Source: Planctomycetota bacterium (GTDB lineage: Bacteria; Planctomycetota; Phycisphaerae; Phycisphaerales; SM1A02). Taken from it: a stretch of 64,000 nt of DNA. The notes below the pieces were generated by a model, which did no database searches, had not been told where the DNA came from, and was given only the letters and a program-made list of their open reading frames with translations. Numbering within the stretch: position 1 is the stretch's first letter; every line of letters starts with the position of its first letter. Shown here piece after piece: positions 7,331-16,499 of the stretch. The position numbers were made by a program, and so were the translations under genes. The stretch spans positions 46,926 to 110,925 of the forward strand of contig VGYQ01000001.1 of NCBI GenBank assembly GCA_016872915.1, written 5' to 3'.

Positions 7331-8812
7331 TCAATGCTCGCCATTGACTCCTCGCGAGTAATTCGGAGATTCCTTCGTGATCTGTATGTCGTGGGGATGA
7401 TTCTCCACAACGGTCGCAGCCGTCACTTGGACGAAGCGAGCCTGCGTTCGTAGCTCCTCAAGCGTTGCGCATCCGCAATAGCCCATTGCACTCCGGAGCC
7501 CCCCCACCATCTGGTAGACGAAATCCGCGAGAGATCCGCGGTAGGGCACCCGCCCCTCCACCCCTTCTGGAACAAACTTGCGCGAACTGGCTTGGCTGTA
7601 GCGGTCCGCGCTCCCGGCCGACATGGCGCCCTCACTGCCCATGCCCCGGTACGCCTTGAATCGCCGATTGCTGTGGAGGACAAGTTCCCCGGGACTCTCA
7701 TCGAGTCCCGCGAAGAGTCCGCCCATCATCACGCTGCTTGCCCCGGCCGCAATTGCCTTTGCGATGTCGCCCGAGAGTCGGATCCCGCCGTCACCGATGA
7801 CAGGAACCCCGGCCGACTCAGCCACAGATACCGCATTCAGAATGGCAGTGATCTGCGGCACCCCAACGCCAGTTACGACGCGCGTGGTGCAGATCGAGCC
7901 TGGTCCAATGCCAACCTTGACGGCGTCCGCGCCCGCATCGATCAGCGCCTTTGCACCCTCTGCCGTTGCAATATTGCCTGCGATCACCTCGATGGACCCG
8001 TGCCGCTTCTTCAGTTCGCGCACGGTTTCAATGACATTGGCACTGTGACCATGCGCCGTATCAACGACAATCACATCCACTTCTGCAGCAATCAGCGCCG
8101 CCGCGCGATCGAACTGTCGAACACCCATGGACGCACCCACGCGCAGACGCCCGCGTTCATCACGGCACGCACGCGGGAATCGGCGGGTGTTGTCGATATC
8201 TCGCATGGTGACAAGCCCCGTCAAGCGCCCCTGGGGATCCACAAGAGGAAGTTTTTCCACTCGTGCCTTGATCATGATCGCCTCCGCTTCCTCAAGCGTC
8301 GTTGCAGGCGTGCCTGTCACGAGCGTGCGGGCCGTCATGGTCTGCGCGACACTTGCGCTCTCGGCCTGCTTCGCAACGAAGCGCATATCACGCCGAGTCA
8401 GGATTCCAACGAGCTTGCCGCGGCGGGTTCCATCCTCTGTTACGGGAAAACCACTGACCCCCTGCTCGCTCATCAACGCAAGTGCGCGCCCGATCGACTC
8501 GTTTGGGCTCAGCGTCACTGGGTCGACGATGACCCCATTCTCGCTGCGCTTCACTTTCGCCACTTCGGCAGCTTGCTGCTCGGGCGACATGTTTTTATGG
8601 ATGATGCCGATCCCCCCCTCCTGTGCAAGCGCACGGGCCAAGGGCGCCTCGGTCACCGTGTCCATCGGGGCAGAAACAATTGGGAGATGAATCGAAATGC
8701 GCCGGGTCAGGCGGGTCGACGTGTCGACTTGGTCAGGGACGACGTTGCTGAACCGCGGCAGCAACAGGACATCATCGAAGGTGATGCCATCCTGGATGAT
8801 CTTGGGCTCCAT
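7331..8812 (-). CDS. guaB: IMP dehydrogenase
   Basis: [18 protein letters not shown] domains; [20 protein letters not shown] catalytic Cys loop. Confidence 0.97.
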
Positions 8813-8907
8813 TGGGAGATGATGCCCGACCCGAGTGCCGCCGTCAAGGCTGCTGCGTGGGTAATCCTGCTACGCTGTCGTGCCACCAGCAAGGAAAGCA
8901 TGCAACC

Positions 8908-10047
8908 GTGAGCGTTTCGCGAAAAGAACTCATCACCCCTGTTCCCACCGATTCCCGCGGTACACAAGCGGGCGAGGGGCGCAAGGCATGGAACTCTTGG
9001 TTGGCCGCCATCATCAAGGTGGAAGGCAGCGATCTCATCGTGAAGGCTGGGTTGCCTCCTCGCATCCGATTTCGCGGTGCGCTGAAGGATCTCACGTCAC
9101 CGCCAGTGACTGAGGACCTGATGTTTCAGGTGGCGAAGGACATCCTTGATCCGAACCAACTCGATCACTTCCGTCGCAACGGCTCGATGGACTTTGCGTT
9201 CGACTTCGATCAGGGGCGTCGTTTCCGAGTGAATCTGTTTATGGCCCGCGGCAGACCGGCCGTGGCTGCCCGACTGATTACGAGCCGGATCAAGACCTTC
9301 GAGGAACTCGGGCTGCGTCCGAGCCTTGGTGATATCTCCATGGCCGCGCAGGGACTCATCCTCTTCTCTGGCGTGACGGGATCGGGCAAGAGCACCTCGA
9401 TCGCCGCGATGCTTCAGTACGTCAATGAACGCAAGAAGGTGCACATCGTCACCATCGAGGATCCGATCGAATACATCTTCACCGATGTCAAGGCGACCAT
9501 CAATCAGCGCGAGATCGGCATTGACTGCACGAACTTTGACGACGCACTGCGCGCACTGGTGCGCGAGAATCCCGACATCTGTCTCGTCGGCGAAATGCGC
9601 GACTACGAAACCTTTGAAGCTGCGGTCCGCGCTGCCGAGACAGGGCACCTGGTGTTCGGCACCATCCATGCCTCAAGCGCGTGGCAGACGTTCGGACGTA
9701 TCTACGATCTCTTCCCCGAAAGCGAGCGAGAACAGATTCGGAAGTTGCTCGCCTACAACTTGCGGGCGATCATCTACCAGAAGTTGCTGCCCACGCTGAA
9801 GCCTGAGATCGCCCGCGTGCCGGCTCTGGAGATTCTGCTCAATACTCCGATCGTGCAAAAGTACATCCTCGATGCGCGAGAGGGAGATCTTCTGGAGATC
9901 ATCAAGGCCGGGAAGGATGAAGGCATGATCGACTACACCTCTGCGCTCGTGGAACTCGTCGAAAGCGAGATGGTCCACCAGCGAGTGGCGATCGAATCGA
10001 CGCCGCGCCCCGAGGAACTCCAGATGCGCCTCAAAGGAATCACCTGA
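8908..10047 (+). CDS. PilT/PilU-type twitching motility ATPase (intact Walker motifs)
   Basis: GVTGSGKSTS Walker A, IEDPIEYIF, LVGEMRDYETFEAAVRAAETGHLVFGTIHASSA Walker B/His box; GTG start chosen. Confidence 0.9.
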   Translation: MSVSRKELITPVPTDSRGTQAGEGRKAWNSWLAAIIKVEGSDLIVKAGLPPRIRFRGALKDLTSPPVTEDLMFQVAKDILDPNQLDHFRRNGSMDFAFDFDQGRRFRVNLFMARGRPAVAARLITSRIKTFEELGLRPSLGDISMAAQGLILFSGVTGSGKSTSIAAMLQYVNERKKVHIVTIEDPIEYIFTDVKATINQREIGIDCTNFDDALRALVRENPDICLVGEMRDYETFEAAVRAAETGHLVFGTIHASSAWQTFGRIYDLFPESEREQIRKLLAYNLRAIIYQKLLPTLKPEIARVPALEILLNTPIVQKYILDAREGDLLEIIKAGKDEGMIDYTSALVELVESEMVHQRVAIESTPRPEELQMRLKGIT

Positions 10048-10085: not shown

Positions 10086-11861
10086 GTGCGTCACCACACA
10101 CGATCGAACGACCGACTCTCCGTGCAACCCTCTGTCCACTATCTGATCTCCATCTACAAGCCGCTGCTGCTTTTTGCCGCCGCGCTTCCCTTCGCATGGG
10201 TGATCTCAACTGTGGTGGAGCAGGACGCTCGGCGGCGGCGTTTCATGCCGGATGTGTGGGCTGGCATCAATCTCGCAACGCTGGCCCTCGGCATTGCATG
10301 CGTCCTCTTCATCAAGTGGTTCTGGCTCGGCTTCCCCTTGATGCTGCTGCTCTTTTGTGGTGCACTCACTGGTTACTGGAAGTATCGCGATAAACGCCTT
10401 CCCCCTGCGGAGCGCTTCGACCTGCTCACGGGGAAGTGGGCTGCCGCCATCGCATCGCGGAAGGCACGGAAGGCGCTCGGTGAAGTCACGGCTGTGTTCC
10501 AAGATGCCAAGGGCAACCGGCTGCAGCCTCCTTCGCGCGAGGATCCGATGCTGCCGGTGCATCTGGCCGCCGAACAAATCGTCGTCCCGTCACTGCCTGC
10601 ACGTGCCTCGAGAGTCGAGATGGTTCCTGGTGCGCAGGAACACACCGTTGTTCGGGTCGTCGACACAATCCGCAGCAAAGTGTCCACGCTCCCCAGCGCC
10701 GAGTCAGACAAAGTGATCGATTACTTCAAGAAGGCGGCAGGGTTGGACGTCAAGGAGCGCCGAAAGCGTCAAGTGGCGACACTCGGAATGCGCGCTGGCG
10801 AAAGCGTTCAGATGTTTCGACTCACCACCTGGGGAACGTCCGCGGGACAGTCGCTGCGCCTGGAACATGACCGCGAGAAGCAACTGACAAAGAAACTGGA
10901 TGAGATGGGGTTCCTCCAATCCCAGTTGCAGGCCCTGCGGGATGCGACGGACAAGATCGCAGGCGGTGTCGTCCTGGTTGCAGTTCCGCCCGGGAATGGC
11001 TTGACAACACTTGGGCTCGCCCTTTTGCAACGACACGATCCCTACACGATGGACATCAAGACCGTCGAAAAGGTTGTTGAGCGAAGACTTGAGGGAATTA
11101 CGCACAACGAGTGGCTCCCTGGAGTCGATGGCACCGATTACGCCACAACTGTTCAGTCGGTCGTACGACGTGGGCCCAATGTGCTGCTCGTCTCTGATCT
11201 GGCAGAGCCGGGTTTGGCGCCGGTTCTGGTGAACCCGAACAGTGCGAACACGATCTTTTACGCCTTAGTGCCTGCGGAAAGCGGCGCAGCGGCACTTGCG
11301 CTCTATTTGAAGTCCGCCGGTGATAAAGCTGCCGCTGCGAAGGCGCTCCGCGCCATCGTGGCTGGTCGTGCCGTGCGACTGCTCTGCAAGCAGTGTCGAC
11401 AGCCATTTACCGCAACCGAAGCGCAGGCCAAACGTCTCGGCGCACCGGATGGCAAGACGCCAACGCTGTACAAGATGGGTGGCCAGATTCAGATCAAGAA
11501 TCAGATCGTGCCTTGCCCCGAATGCCAAGGCACTGGATTCGTCGGAGTGACCGGCGCCTATGAAGTTCTTCGGCCCGATGAACGAGCGATCGAGTTGATG
11601 GTGGCCGGCGATGTCGTCAATGCGTATCAGCAGATGCGGCGCGCGCATCGCGCGCCGACCGCGCAGGAGGCTGCCTTGATCAAGGTTCGATCGGGCGAGA
11701 CAAGCCTTGACGAGGTGGCTCGCGCATTCGCCCCACGCGTTGCTGCATCAAAGACGACGAGCACGGCTCGCCCTGCTTCGGCACCATCTCCAGGGACTCC
11801 AAGTCCGCCGACCAAGTCGCCGCAAGCAGCGCGCCCACCGGCAAAGGGAGGCAAGCCATGA
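10086..11861 (+). CDS. Membrane-anchored GspE/PilB-family protein with degenerate ATPase site
   Basis: GspE-like fold order with CKQCRQPF...CPECQGTGFVGVTGAYEVL tetra-Cys motif; Walker A position reads AVPPGNGLTTLGL (no Lys), Walker B LLVSDLAEPG; two N-terminal TM helices; start may be GTG at 10122. Confidence 0.8.
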   Translation: MRHHTRSNDRLSVQPSVHYLISIYKPLLLFAAALPFAWVISTVVEQDARRRRFMPDVWAGINLATLALGIACVLFIKWFWLGFPLMLLLFCGALTGYWKYRDKRLPPAERFDLLTGKWAAAIASRKARKALGEVTAVFQDAKGNRLQPPSREDPMLPVHLAAEQIVVPSLPARASRVEMVPGAQEHTVVRVVDTIRSKVSTLPSAESDKVIDYFKKAAGLDVKERRKRQVATLGMRAGESVQMFRLTTWGTSAGQSLRLEHDREKQLTKKLDEMGFLQSQLQALRDATDKIAGGVVLVAVPPGNGLTTLGLALLQRHDPYTMDIKTVEKVVERRLEGITHNEWLPGVDGTDYATTVQSVVRRGPNVLLVSDLAEPGLAPVLVNPNSANTIFYALVPAESGAAALALYLKSAGDKAAAAKALRAIVAGRAVRLLCKQCRQPFTATEAQAKRLGAPDGKTPTLYKMGGQIQIKNQIVPCPECQGTGFVGVTGAYEVLRPDERAIELMVAGDVVNAYQQMRRAHRAPTAQEAALIKVRSGETSLDEVARAFAPRVAASKTTSTARPASAPSPGTPSPPTKSPQAARPPAKGGKP

Positions 11862-13528
11862 TCCTCAACGTGCTGGTGCTTGGGGCGATCGGATTCATCG
11901 CCTATTGGTGGATCAGTCAAGGCGCGCTGAGCGCGGTTCTGCACTGCCTCTGCGTGATCGTCGCCGGTGCATTGACGTTCGCTGTGTGGGAGCCGATCGT
12001 TGTCAACGGGCTGCTCAACGGCGGCACCTTCGACAATTACGCATGGGGCCTGACCTTCGGGCTCGTCTTCGCGGTGCTTCTCCTGATCCTTCGCGTGGCA
12101 AGTGACAAACTTGTTCCGTTTGATATCCCCCTGCAGAGGTACGTCAGCATGGCGATCGGTGCGGTGGCGGGAGTTGCGTCCGGCGTGCTGACGGTGGGCA
12201 TCCTCCTGATCGCATGCGGGTTCATCCAAGGGCCCATCGACCTGCTCGAGTTCACGGGGTACGCGCGTGATCCGAAGAATCAGGGGCAACCCGCGCCACT
12301 CGCCAAACTCTGGGTCGATGCACCGAAACTCACTGAGACATTTTACGCAACGGTCTCTCGGGGAGGCCTGTCACCGGCGGGGAGAAACTCACTCGCTTCA
12401 AGCCAACCGGAACTGGCAAGGATGGCGCTCAGTCTGCACAAAGACACTTTCAAGAGGGGCGATGCGCGAACCACCATCGCACCCGACTCTGTCACTGGCC
12501 TTGAACTGGTCTTTGATCCAACAGGCGGCACCAACGGTGCTGGGGTGTATGCCGTGAAGTTCACGGTCGACACAAAGGCGTTCGATCAGGGACAGTTCAT
12601 CTTGTCGTCGGCGCAGGCTCGCTTGGCGGACGCATCCTCGCAGCCGAAGGTGATGTTCCCGCGCAAGTTCAATCAGCCGATGGAAGATGGTTCCACGCGC
12701 ACGTATTCCTTCGAAGACACCGGCAACTATGCAACGACCCCGCCCGCGCAGCAGTCCGGCACATTCGTACTGCTGTTTGACGCGCCATCGAGTGGGCCAG
12801 CGAGTGGCAATGCACCCAAGGGTGAAATGAACTTTTTCTTGAAGGGGCTGCGATATACGTTCAAAACGATTCCCATTGAAAACGGTGGTCTCGCCCGCTT
12901 GACGGGCAGCGACACAGGGCTGACAGCGCCCGCAATCGATGTGGTCAAGGAGGGTGGTGGGTTCGTCTTCAATGCGCAGGAGTTTGTTGCGGTCGTCAAC
13001 ACACTGCGCCCCGTGTCGCTCAGCACAAACGATGTGAAGTCGCTGCAGTTCAAGACCACAGATGGCGGCAACTTCATCTCCGGAGGTATCAGCAGCTTTC
13101 CAAAGGGTGCTGCCACTGCGATCTCGAGGAGCCTGGTTGTCAAGGGATTCCTCTGCCAGCCGGGAACGACAATCGTGATGGTGGATGTCTCGCGCGGGAA
13201 GGGTGGCATGGACATTTGGGGAGATCGGAATCCGAAGGTGAAGGACACCGTCGACAGTGCCCCACTCGAACTCGTGGACAAGCGCGGCAAGGGGTTCCGG
13301 CCGGTTGGTTATGTGTGGGAACGCCAGTCCGATGTCGAAATCTGCTTCGAGCCAACCAAGCCGTTTGCCACTGTGGCGTCCCTGCCCCCGCAACCAAGTT
13401 CCGGCGAAAACACGCTGCGGCTTGTCTTTATTGTGCCAATCGGGTCCGAAATCGTCGGTTTGCGAGTGGGCAAGATTTCGGTTGCCACTTGCGATTTGAA
13501 GGCTGGAGAGGCTCGGGCGGATTACTGA
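11858..13528 (+). CDS. CvpA-like membrane protein with large soluble C-terminal domain, unknown function
   Basis: N-terminal ~130 aa of four hydrophobic helices resembling CvpA, ATGA overlap with preceding gene. Confidence 0.65.
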   Translation: MILNVLVLGAIGFIAYWWISQGALSAVLHCLCVIVAGALTFAVWEPIVVNGLLNGGTFDNYAWGLTFGLVFAVLLLILRVASDKLVPFDIPLQRYVSMAIGAVAGVASGVLTVGILLIACGFIQGPIDLLEFTGYARDPKNQGQPAPLAKLWVDAPKLTETFYATVSRGGLSPAGRNSLASSQPELARMALSLHKDTFKRGDARTTIAPDSVTGLELVFDPTGGTNGAGVYAVKFTVDTKAFDQGQFILSSAQARLADASSQPKVMFPRKFNQPMEDGSTRTYSFEDTGNYATTPPAQQSGTFVLLFDAPSSGPASGNAPKGEMNFFLKGLRYTFKTIPIENGGLARLTGSDTGLTAPAIDVVKEGGGFVFNAQEFVAVVNTLRPVSLSTNDVKSLQFKTTDGGNFISGGISSFPKGAATAISRSLVVKGFLCQPGTTIVMVDVSRGKGGMDIWGDRNPKVKDTVDSAPLELVDKRGKGFRPVGYVWERQSDVEICFEPTKPFATVASLPPQPSSGENTLRLVFIVPIGSEIVGLRVGKISVATCDLKAGEARADY

Positions 13529-13614: not shown

Positions 13615-13790
13615 TTGGATTTGCCTCACCCGCGATCCTCGATAGATTATGGGAAGAGGGGCTTTGTCGCCCCGGTTGCGGGTTGTTGGGTCAAAGTGCA
13701 CAAGCATGATGCTGAAGCAGTTGATCTTGTCTCCCCTCGACGGCCGTTGAATGTTTGGTTCTCGTGAACACCAAATTTGGAGAAAGATCA

Positions 13791-16499
13791 ATGCTGAACA
13801 ATCGAACTTCGTGGGTAGTGGCGTGGACGATGACTGCATGTACGGCAGCCATCGCGCACGCTCAAGGCGGTGCATCGTGTACTGCGGCCGTGCCTGCATC
13901 CGTCGGCGATAACGCATACAACAACGCGGGCGCAACGGTCGATGTCGACTACGCAGGGCTGTGCGACATGGGCCAGTTTGGCACCGACACAAACTTCAAC
14001 ACGGTCTGGTTCAAGTGGACCGCGACCGCGAGCGACACCTTCACGCTCTCGACTTGCAACACCGCTGGTGGCGTGGATACGCGCCTCTCGGTGCAAACAG
14101 GTTGCACCGCCGACACTGTGGTCGCGTGCAATGATGACGGTGCGGGGTGCGCTCAATACTCAAGCAAACTGACGTTCTCCGCAACATCTGGAACGCTGTA
14201 TTACATCGCCGTTGGCGTGTATAGCGCGACGACTGCGGGTGGTCCCGGGACGATGGCGCTCACACAGGGCGACGGTGGTGGCGGCGGTGGCGGCGGTGGC
14301 GGCGGCGGCGACTGCTGCGTTGGGAACCCCGGCACGACCTGCTGCTCCGACGCGGAGTGCTGTGCCACGGTGTGTGCGGAGGATCCCTACTGCTGCAATA
14401 CCGAATGGGATCAGATCTGCGCCAATCAGGCCGTCCAATTATGCTCCGCATGCGGCGGCGGCGGCGGCGGCGGCGGCGGTTGTGGCTCAGGCGGCGACTG
14501 CTGCACTGCGAACCCTGGTACGGCTGGCTGCGCGGATCAAACATGCTGCGAAACCGTGTGTGCCACGGACCCCTTCTGCTGCGATACCGAATGGGATCAG
14601 TTCTGCGCCAGTGGTGCTGCGACTCTCTGCGAGGCGTGCGGCGGCGGAAGCTGCGAGGTCCCCGATGGCTCGCAGACCGAACTGGAGGCATGCGGTGACG
14701 ACTCGAACGGCGGCTGCAACGGCGGCGGCGCAAACGAGCCACTGAACTCACTGAATGGTTCGGTGGGCGGCACCTTCTATGCATCCACCACGATGCGCGA
14801 CACCGACTGGTACAGCTTCACAGTCACCAGCGGAACGCAGGTATCACTGTCTCTCTTCAGCAACCTGCCGTCGTTCTGTGCGATCGTCGACAACCCAGGC
14901 TGCTCCATCGTGGGCTCGGTCAGCACGGGCAACTGCCCGAGCACTCTGTCCGTGTGCGTCGGCCCTGGCGACTACTACGTGGTGTGCCTCCCCAGCCAGT
15001 TCATCGAACTGCCTTGCGGCGGTGCTCTCGGTAACGACTACACGCTCAACGTGACGTCGACCACGTGCGAATTCACACCTCCTGCAGGCGACAGCTGCGC
15101 GGCTCCCGCTCCGGCAGTGATCGGCAGCAATGCCTTCGACAACTCCAATGCTGGCACGGAGTACGGCGAGGTGACCTGCGGTTTCGGAGGCGCGCCGTTC
15201 ACGAAGGATGTGTTCTACTCGTTCGCGGTGACCGCCGCGGATGACTACACCTTCGAGACCTGCACGGCCGGTACGTTCGATACCGGCATCGAAATTTGGA
15301 CAGACTGTCCTAACAAGGGTGGTTCGATGTTGGCATGCAACGATGACGGTGTTGGCTGCCCGAACTTCTCGTCGCTCTTGAGCGCATACCTGGATGTTGG
15401 TAACTACATCATCCGGGTGGGTGGCTGGCAGGGCGATACAGGTGCTTCCTCGCTGGAGATTTCTCAGGGTGCGCCAGTCGGTCCTGAGAACGACAACTGC
15501 AGTGATGCCATTCCCGCGGTTGTGGGCAGCAATTCGTTCGATAACACGGGCTCAACGACGGACGGGCCAAACCCGACCGACGCTTCCTGCGGCACCTTCG
15601 GTGGCAGTTTCTACAACGATGTGTGGTTCAACTTCGCTGCTCCCGCAACTGCAACCTTCAAGGTTTCGCTGTGCGATGGCGCGTCGTTCGACACTCGCAT
15701 CGACATCTATGCAGACTGCAACTTTGGTGTGCCCGTTGCATGCAACGACGACTCGTGCGAGGTGCAGTCTGAATTGACCTTCCCGGCCACTTCGGGCACC
15801 ACTTACAAGATTCGTATCGGTGCGTACGGCGCGGCCGGCTTCGGAAGCGGCACCTTCGTCATCACAAACGAGGGTGGCGGTGGTGGTGGCGGTGGTGGTG
15901 GTGGTGGTGGCGGCCAAGGTCTCACCTGCGCGAATCCACTCACGCTGAATGCGGGTGCGAACCCCTTCACGCGTGCGGGCGCGACAGTCGACCTCGACTA
16001 CACGGGTCTTTGCGACATGGGACAGTTTGGTACGGACATCAACTACAACTGTGTGTTCTATACCTTCTCCCCTGCACAGAGCGGTCTTTACACCTTCTCG
16101 ACATGCAACACGGCAAATCATGACACACGATTGTCGATCCAGACATCGTGCGAAGCGAGCACTGTGGTCGCATGCAATGATGACGGTGCGGGGTGCGCAA
16201 CCTTCACGTCCATCATGACTGCAACGCTCCAGTGCGGTGTCAATTACGTCGTCGCAGTTGGTGGTTATTCAGCGACCACTCCGCTTGGCACTGGCACACT
16301 CGATGTGTCCGTGGCAGGTGGACAGCCGTGTTCACCTGCGTGTCCGGCAGACTTCGACAACAACGGGGTTGTGGGCGGCACTGACCTCACGATCCTGCTC
16401 GGCGCATGGGGTGCGGCTGGTGGCGACCTGAACGGCGACAATACGACGTCAGGCACTGACCTCACGATCCTGCTCGGCGCGTGGGGCAACTGCCAGTAA
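13791..16499 (+). CDS. Secreted modular protein: PPC-like repeats, two 9-Cys modules, poly-Gly linkers, C-terminal dockerin-like repeats
   Basis: Signal peptide MLNNRTSWVVAWTMTACTAAIAHAQ; DCCVGNPGTTCCSDAECCATVCAEDPYCCNTEWDQICANQAVQLC repeated; CPADFDNNGVVGGTDLTILLGAWG...DLNGDNTTSGTDLTILLGAWGNC. Confidence 0.9.
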   Translation: MLNNRTSWVVAWTMTACTAAIAHAQGGASCTAAVPASVGDNAYNNAGATVDVDYAGLCDMGQFGTDTNFNTVWFKWTATASDTFTLSTCNTAGGVDTRLSVQTGCTADTVVACNDDGAGCAQYSSKLTFSATSGTLYYIAVGVYSATTAGGPGTMALTQGDGGGGGGGGGGGGDCCVGNPGTTCCSDAECCATVCAEDPYCCNTEWDQICANQAVQLCSACGGGGGGGGGCGSGGDCCTANPGTAGCADQTCCETVCATDPFCCDTEWDQFCASGAATLCEACGGGSCEVPDGSQTELEACGDDSNGGCNGGGANEPLNSLNGSVGGTFYASTTMRDTDWYSFTVTSGTQVSLSLFSNLPSFCAIVDNPGCSIVGSVSTGNCPSTLSVCVGPGDYYVVCLPSQFIELPCGGALGNDYTLNVTSTTCEFTPPAGDSCAAPAPAVIGSNAFDNSNAGTEYGEVTCGFGGAPFTKDVFYSFAVTAADDYTFETCTAGTFDTGIEIWTDCPNKGGSMLACNDDGVGCPNFSSLLSAYLDVGNYIIRVGGWQGDTGASSLEISQGAPVGPENDNCSDAIPAVVGSNSFDNTGSTTDGPNPTDASCGTFGGSFYNDVWFNFAAPATATFKVSLCDGASFDTRIDIYADCNFGVPVACNDDSCEVQSELTFPATSGTTYKIRIGAYGAAGFGSGTFVITNEGGGGGGGGGGGGGGQGLTCANPLTLNAGANPFTRAGATVDLDYTGLCDMGQFGTDINYNCVFYTFSPAQSGLYTFSTCNTANHDTRLSIQTSCEASTVVACNDDGAGCATFTSIMTATLQCGVNYVVAVGGYSATTPLGTGTLDVSVAGGQPCSPACPADFDNNGVVGGTDLTILLGAWGAAGGDLNGDNTTSGTDLTILLGAWGNCQ

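Follow-up and report, generated by a model that had tools for sequence, protein, structure and literature searches.

The window analysed in this study, by which we mean the whole stretch of 64,000 nucleotides from a planctomycete of the class Phycisphaerae, contains a gene for a membrane-anchored relative of the GspE/PilB secretion and pilus ATPases, flanked by genes for an intact PilT-family ATPase, here called PilT2, and for a CvpA-like membrane protein (Table 1). The protein is built, in order, of a hydrophobic region, an N2-like domain, a degenerate ATPase domain, a tetracysteine motif, a C-terminal domain and a low-complexity tail. The hydrophobic region takes the position of the N1 domain of GspE/PilB, for which profile searches gave no match.

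Table 1. Features of the pseudo-ATPase locus, in window positions; the first base of residue n of the 591-aa protein is 10086+3(n-1)
Feature	Position	Strand	Remarks
IMP dehydrogenase gene	7331-8812	-	Transcribed divergently from PilT2; conserved at 9 loci within the window's family
PilT2, PilT/PilU-family ATPase	8812-10047	+	Neighbour and proposed motor partner; TIGR01420 386 bits, cut-off 319
Membrane-anchored GspE/PilB-family protein, predicted pseudo-ATPase	10086-11861	+	GTG start; 591 aa; PF00437 E 8.5e-28; orthologues in 292/298 class genomes
Hydrophobic N-terminal region	10131-10379	+	About three predicted membrane helices (residues ~16-46, 55-75, 79-98), from hydropathy of the window protein and class mean and from AlphaFold helices
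N2-like domain (residues ~155-265)	10548-10880	+	Arginine-finger positions Arg245 and Glu260; from alignments; AlphaFold block with pLDDT mostly 70-88
Degenerate Walker A GGVVLVAVPPGNGLTTLGL (residues 293-311)	10962-11018	+	Lys position is Leu306 (11001-11003)
Degenerate ASP box	11055-11084	+	Mg-ligand Glu328 (11067-11069) kept, next D/E lost
Walker B region RRGPNVLLVSDLAEPG (residues 361-376)	11166-11213	+	
Degenerate Walker B	11178-11213	+	Catalytic Glu position is Asp371 (11196-11198)
Lost HIS box (residues 389-399)	11250-11282	+	Thr389 and Pro396 where intact relatives carry His
Tetracysteine motif C434xxC437 ... C477xxC480	11385-11525	+	CxxC at 434-437, CPEC at 477-480; from alignments
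CvpA-like (Colicin_V family) membrane protein	11858-13528	+	Bears a large beta-rich domain at its C terminus; overlaps the pseudo-ATPase stop by 4 bp (ATGA)
Large glycine- and cysteine-rich repeat protein	13755-16499	+	Dockerin-like repeat end (DFDNNGVVGGTDLTILLGAWG); directly downstream of the module

A sequence-only reading of this DNA had proposed a GspE/PilB homologue that has lost both nucleotide-binding motifs, and the homology is well founded. The T2SSE profile PF00437 matches the protein over positions 13-370 of 370 with 97.5 bits (cut-off 24.9), the GspE model matches it with an E-value of 2.4e-37, and the GspE structures 4pht and 1p9r in the PDB do so at about 1e-26. The scores against the equivalog models TIGR02533 (128.7 bits, cut-off 630.25) and TIGR02538 (110.4 bits, cut-off 675.65) lie far below their cut-offs. 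Judged by its sequence, the protein is a member of the GspE/PilB superfamily but does not pass as a functional GspE/PilB ATPase. Two AlphaFold models, for which only the window protein and its counterparts at four related loci served as input, are of low confidence (pLDDT 50 and 47). That of the pseudo-ATPase is poor in its C-terminal domain because its input was limited to five sequences, and the assignment of the fold therefore rests on the profile matches.

The earlier claims that the Walker A lysine is replaced by leucine and that Walker B and the HTN-type (HIS) box are lost hold for the open reading frame; the lost HIS box runs slightly past position 11260, where that reading had ended it. 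What it had passed over is that Glu328 and Arg245, one of the two arginine-finger positions, are kept, that the N terminus is hydrophobic, and that an intact PilT-family gene and a CvpA-like gene stand on either side. In the PilB structure, Mg is bound by the ASP-box residue E357, the arginine contacts are made by R271 and R286, and H413 and H420 form the HIS box (PMC5424180); these roles were assigned to columns 245/260 and 389/396 by motif alignment and spacing (15 and 7 residues), not by structure superposition. Orthologue alignment, which the sequence-only reading had suggested, was carried out with 92 distinct sequences of the class, drawn from 23 coded families and one named record (L038), among which no close relative with intact motifs was found. 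The Walker A lysine at position 306 is kept in none of them and is replaced by L, R, V, I, T, S, M, Q or A. The catalytic Glu371 is present in 19, the arginine fingers Arg245 and Arg260 in 23 and 15, and the HIS-box histidines His389 and His396 in 7 and 4, respectively. Of the seven catalytic residues, half of the class orthologues retain a single one, and the maximum is four, reached by 3 of the 92. By contrast with this class-wide loss, all seven are present in each of the 19 sequences from the outgroup families f51 and f58. It is conceivable that the glutamate at position 371, together with the few proteins that keep four residues, reflects an ATPase whose divergent catalytic site is still active, but with the P-loop lysine gone in every orthologue and a single residue left in half of them we regard this as very improbable. 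On the evidence of these alignments, the class protein is almost certainly a pseudo-ATPase.

Some parts of the nucleotide site have been spared. The P-loop Gly305 is present in 92/92 class orthologues, Thr or Ser307 in 91/92 and the Mg ligand Glu328 in 91/92, which makes residual binding of nucleotide or Mg conceivable. The protein might then act as a nucleotide-sensing regulator, with non-canonical binding of ATP or ADP, no hydrolysis, and a conformational change that switches its partners; a lysine or arginine at positions 301-304 in 41 of the 92 proteins would also fit such a role. However, position 306 varies freely, unlike a conserved alternative binding site, the Walker A lysine is missing throughout, and both arginine-finger positions and the HIS box are mostly lost, so that this explanation appears unlikely to us. 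Residues conserved in both the class and the intact outgroup are the cysteines, N2 core residues and residues of the C-terminal domain, E493, G537, E543 and R546 among them. The retention of the zinc domain that the sequence-only reading had pointed out applies to the window protein and to about 95% of the class, but not to four orthologues of family f2, L033, L034, L039 and L041, in which three of the four zinc cysteines are gone (LAKSSRE, CPES); the f2 members L088 and L100 keep them. Zinc binding is therefore not an invariant feature.

An orthologue is present in nearly all of 40 relatives at the genus, family and order levels, and one with the same hydrophobic N terminus in 292 of the 298 class genomes. 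The order of the window genome includes Phycisphaera sp. isolate RI_212 (L037), and since Phycisphaera is a genus of Phycisphaerae, the class was identified with the latter. Most of the genomes compared are metagenome assemblies. Class matches that span the hydrophobic N terminus score mostly 300-770 bits; canonical GspE/PilB proteins of the class reach at most ~270 bits and align only from position ~107-165. When the 32 lowest-scoring class genomes were searched again in full, 26 yielded an orthologue or a contig-edge fragment, and none was found in the remaining six (G110, G143, G151, G186, G200 and G294). In a set of 294 genomes from the phylum, the only orthologues detected beyond the class were those of the families f51 (16/16 sampled), f58 (3/3), f101 (1/1) and f92 (2/3). 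Since the f51 and f58 orthologues outside the class keep all seven residues, the active form is, on this distribution, the ancestral one.

The gene is under strong purifying selection. Its dN/dS ratios for nine within-group pairs (NG86, pairwise) range from 0.056 to 0.109, and those of PilT2 are lower in each of the nine pairs (0.009-0.078), although all these ratios are approximate because several dS values exceed 1. Absent catalytic motifs are also what a pseudogene, a recent decay or a sequencing or assembly error would leave behind; the reading frame is open in independent assemblies, however, and this explanation, to which we give practically no weight, is ruled out by the dN/dS of ~0.06-0.11 and by a loss common to all 92 distinct orthologues. 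The catalytic decay is ancient, class-wide and under selection. This supports the pseudoenzyme reading given from the sequence; the 'structural' part of that label is something we infer.

The class forms one clade in the pseudo-ATPase protein trees (SH-aLRT 98-99, 'quick' searches, no bootstrap). The three f101 and f92 sequences (L116 from f101; L117 and L175 from f92), which keep one or two of the seven residues, are placed beside it on long branches, and a single clade of f51, f101 and f92 is not rejected (AU p 0.32). In the PilT2 tree, likewise a 'quick' search without bootstrap, f101 and f92 fall with f51, and the AU test strongly rejects a grouping of the class with f101 and f92 (p 1.5e-5). 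A single origin of all losses is thereby disfavoured despite the placement of f101/f92 in the protein tree, and an independent second loss is favoured. The simplest reading of the trees would thus be that f101/f92 lost the catalytic motifs independently of the class, though horizontal replacement of one gene may also have produced this pattern.

PilT2 bears the marks of a working motor. Its motifs are intact in the window (GVTGSGKS, IEDPIEY, GEMRD and the His box), its Walker A/B residues are invariant in 24 aligned relatives, and it forms its own clade in PilT trees. The Walker A lysine is kept in every row checked; the exact GE[ML]RD string is missing in six rows, which read GE/AE variants with the glutamate present. 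The other neighbour matches PF02674 weakly in its window copy (11.6 bits, E 0.28, cut-off 29.3), and its CvpA assignment is based on orthologues that pass this cut-off, namely L114 (35.8 bits) and L093 (32.0 bits). It measures ~240 aa in f51, versus often ~550 aa with the beta-rich extension in the window's order. PilT2, pseudo-ATPase and CvpA-like genes occur together in essentially all order-level loci (L021 starts at a contig edge). Among 17 class loci outside this order, the CvpA-like gene adjoins the pseudo-ATPase in every one, and PilT2 does so in 10; G042, G260 and G208 carry PilT2 at another place in the genome. Searches of the f11 genomes found no gene of the PilT2 clade, only ordinary PilT, and the f11 loci L090, L092 and L097 have the pseudo-ATPase and CvpA-like genes with no PilT2 nearby. 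A strict three-gene module is ruled out by the 7/17 loci with non-adjacent PilT2 and by its absence from f11 genomes, and as the latter keep the pseudo-ATPase and CvpA-like genes, PilT2 is not obligatory everywhere. In f51/f58, the gene for the intact form has a CvpA-like neighbour in nearly all cases; PilT2 is found next to it, in its vicinity or in another part of the genome. A HisF-like gene stands beside the module in 15 loci (e.g. L117:7221-8003), which probably reflects conserved synteny without a functional link. The locus L093 (954-7958) is a tandem array of genes for PilT2, an intact FHA-domain GspE, pseudo-ATPase and CvpA-like protein, so that active and dead GspE-type genes adjoin.

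The window genome also encodes canonical GspE/PilB proteins distinct from the pseudo-ATPase, together with a canonical PilT and with PilC/GspF, and the dead protein is therefore not its sole assembly ATPase. With these genes at hand, the protein could be an accessory subunit of a canonical type IV pilus or type II secretion system that mixes with or caps active GspE/PilB on the PilC/GspF platform and thereby tunes it, and the intact FHA-GspE between PilT2 and pseudo-ATPase in genome G165 (L093) would suit such an arrangement. In the window genome, however, the module and the canonical pilus genes do not lie together, and no conserved PilC, pilin or PilM gene was found among its recurrent neighbours. 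We therefore consider this idea even less likely than that of a nucleotide sensor.

The explanation that we prefer, and hold to be probable, is that a fixed membrane pseudo-ATPase scaffolds or regulates an envelope complex of the CvpA-like protein and PilT2; both this role and the absence of ATP turnover are what we infer from motif loss, conservation and gene neighbourhood. The ancestor would have been a planctomycete ATPase of the GspE/PilB type, anchored in the inner membrane by its N-terminal hydrophobic segment and linked with PilT2 and the CvpA-like protein. ATP turnover would have been lost before the class radiated, with the fold, the membrane anchor, the C-terminal domain and the CvpA-like neighbour kept. 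The present-day protein may form a ring or adaptor that does not hydrolyse ATP and is located at the membrane together with the CvpA-like protein. In genomes with PilT2 it would dock onto or regulate an active PilT2 hexamer, which would supply the ATP-driven work. More tentatively, and with the odds rather against it, one may picture an undescribed envelope machine of planctomycetes in which an active PilT-type ring acts on a membrane complex made up of the CvpA-like protein and, as fixed scaffold, a dead PilB-type ring anchored in the membrane; this complex would have evolved from a two-ATPase machine by the loss of one motor at least twice.

The usual description of secretion and pilus motor ATPases is that their catalytic residues are conserved (PMC5424180), and in the open-access papers searched we found no description of such a pseudo-ATPase family. 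A class-wide dead family that descends from an active form, is linked to an active motor and has probably seen a second, independent loss offers a natural experiment on the non-hydrolytic roles of such rings. The findings also point to an uncharacterized CvpA-like/PilT2 module in planctomycetes and indicate that a 'GspE/PilB' annotation does not imply a motor.

Among known systems, GspE/PilB (PDB 4pht, 1p9r, 5tsg) share with the pseudo-ATPase the order of N2 and C-terminal ATPase domains, the tetracysteine motif and the C-terminal domain; unlike them, the pseudo-ATPase has a hydrophobic membrane region in place of N1, and six of seven catalytic positions are mostly lost across the class. The FlaH family is KaiC/RecA-like and differs from GspE/PilB. 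FlaH/ArlH binds ATP and partners the motor FlaI of the archaellum (PMC6011876), and the likeness is a works-like analogy only, namely that of an accessory nucleotide-fold protein alongside a motor of the secretion superfamily. PilU, a PilT-dependent accessory retraction ATPase (PMC6821130), is likewise comparable in the way it works, as a second ring-ATPase homologue paired with a PilT; however PilU is catalytically active, while the window protein is GspE/PilB-type, membrane-anchored and predicted to be inactive. The intact membrane-anchored GspE of f51/f58 is orthologous to the class protein and has the same hydrophobic N terminus and CvpA-like neighbour, but differs from it in its complete catalytic site.
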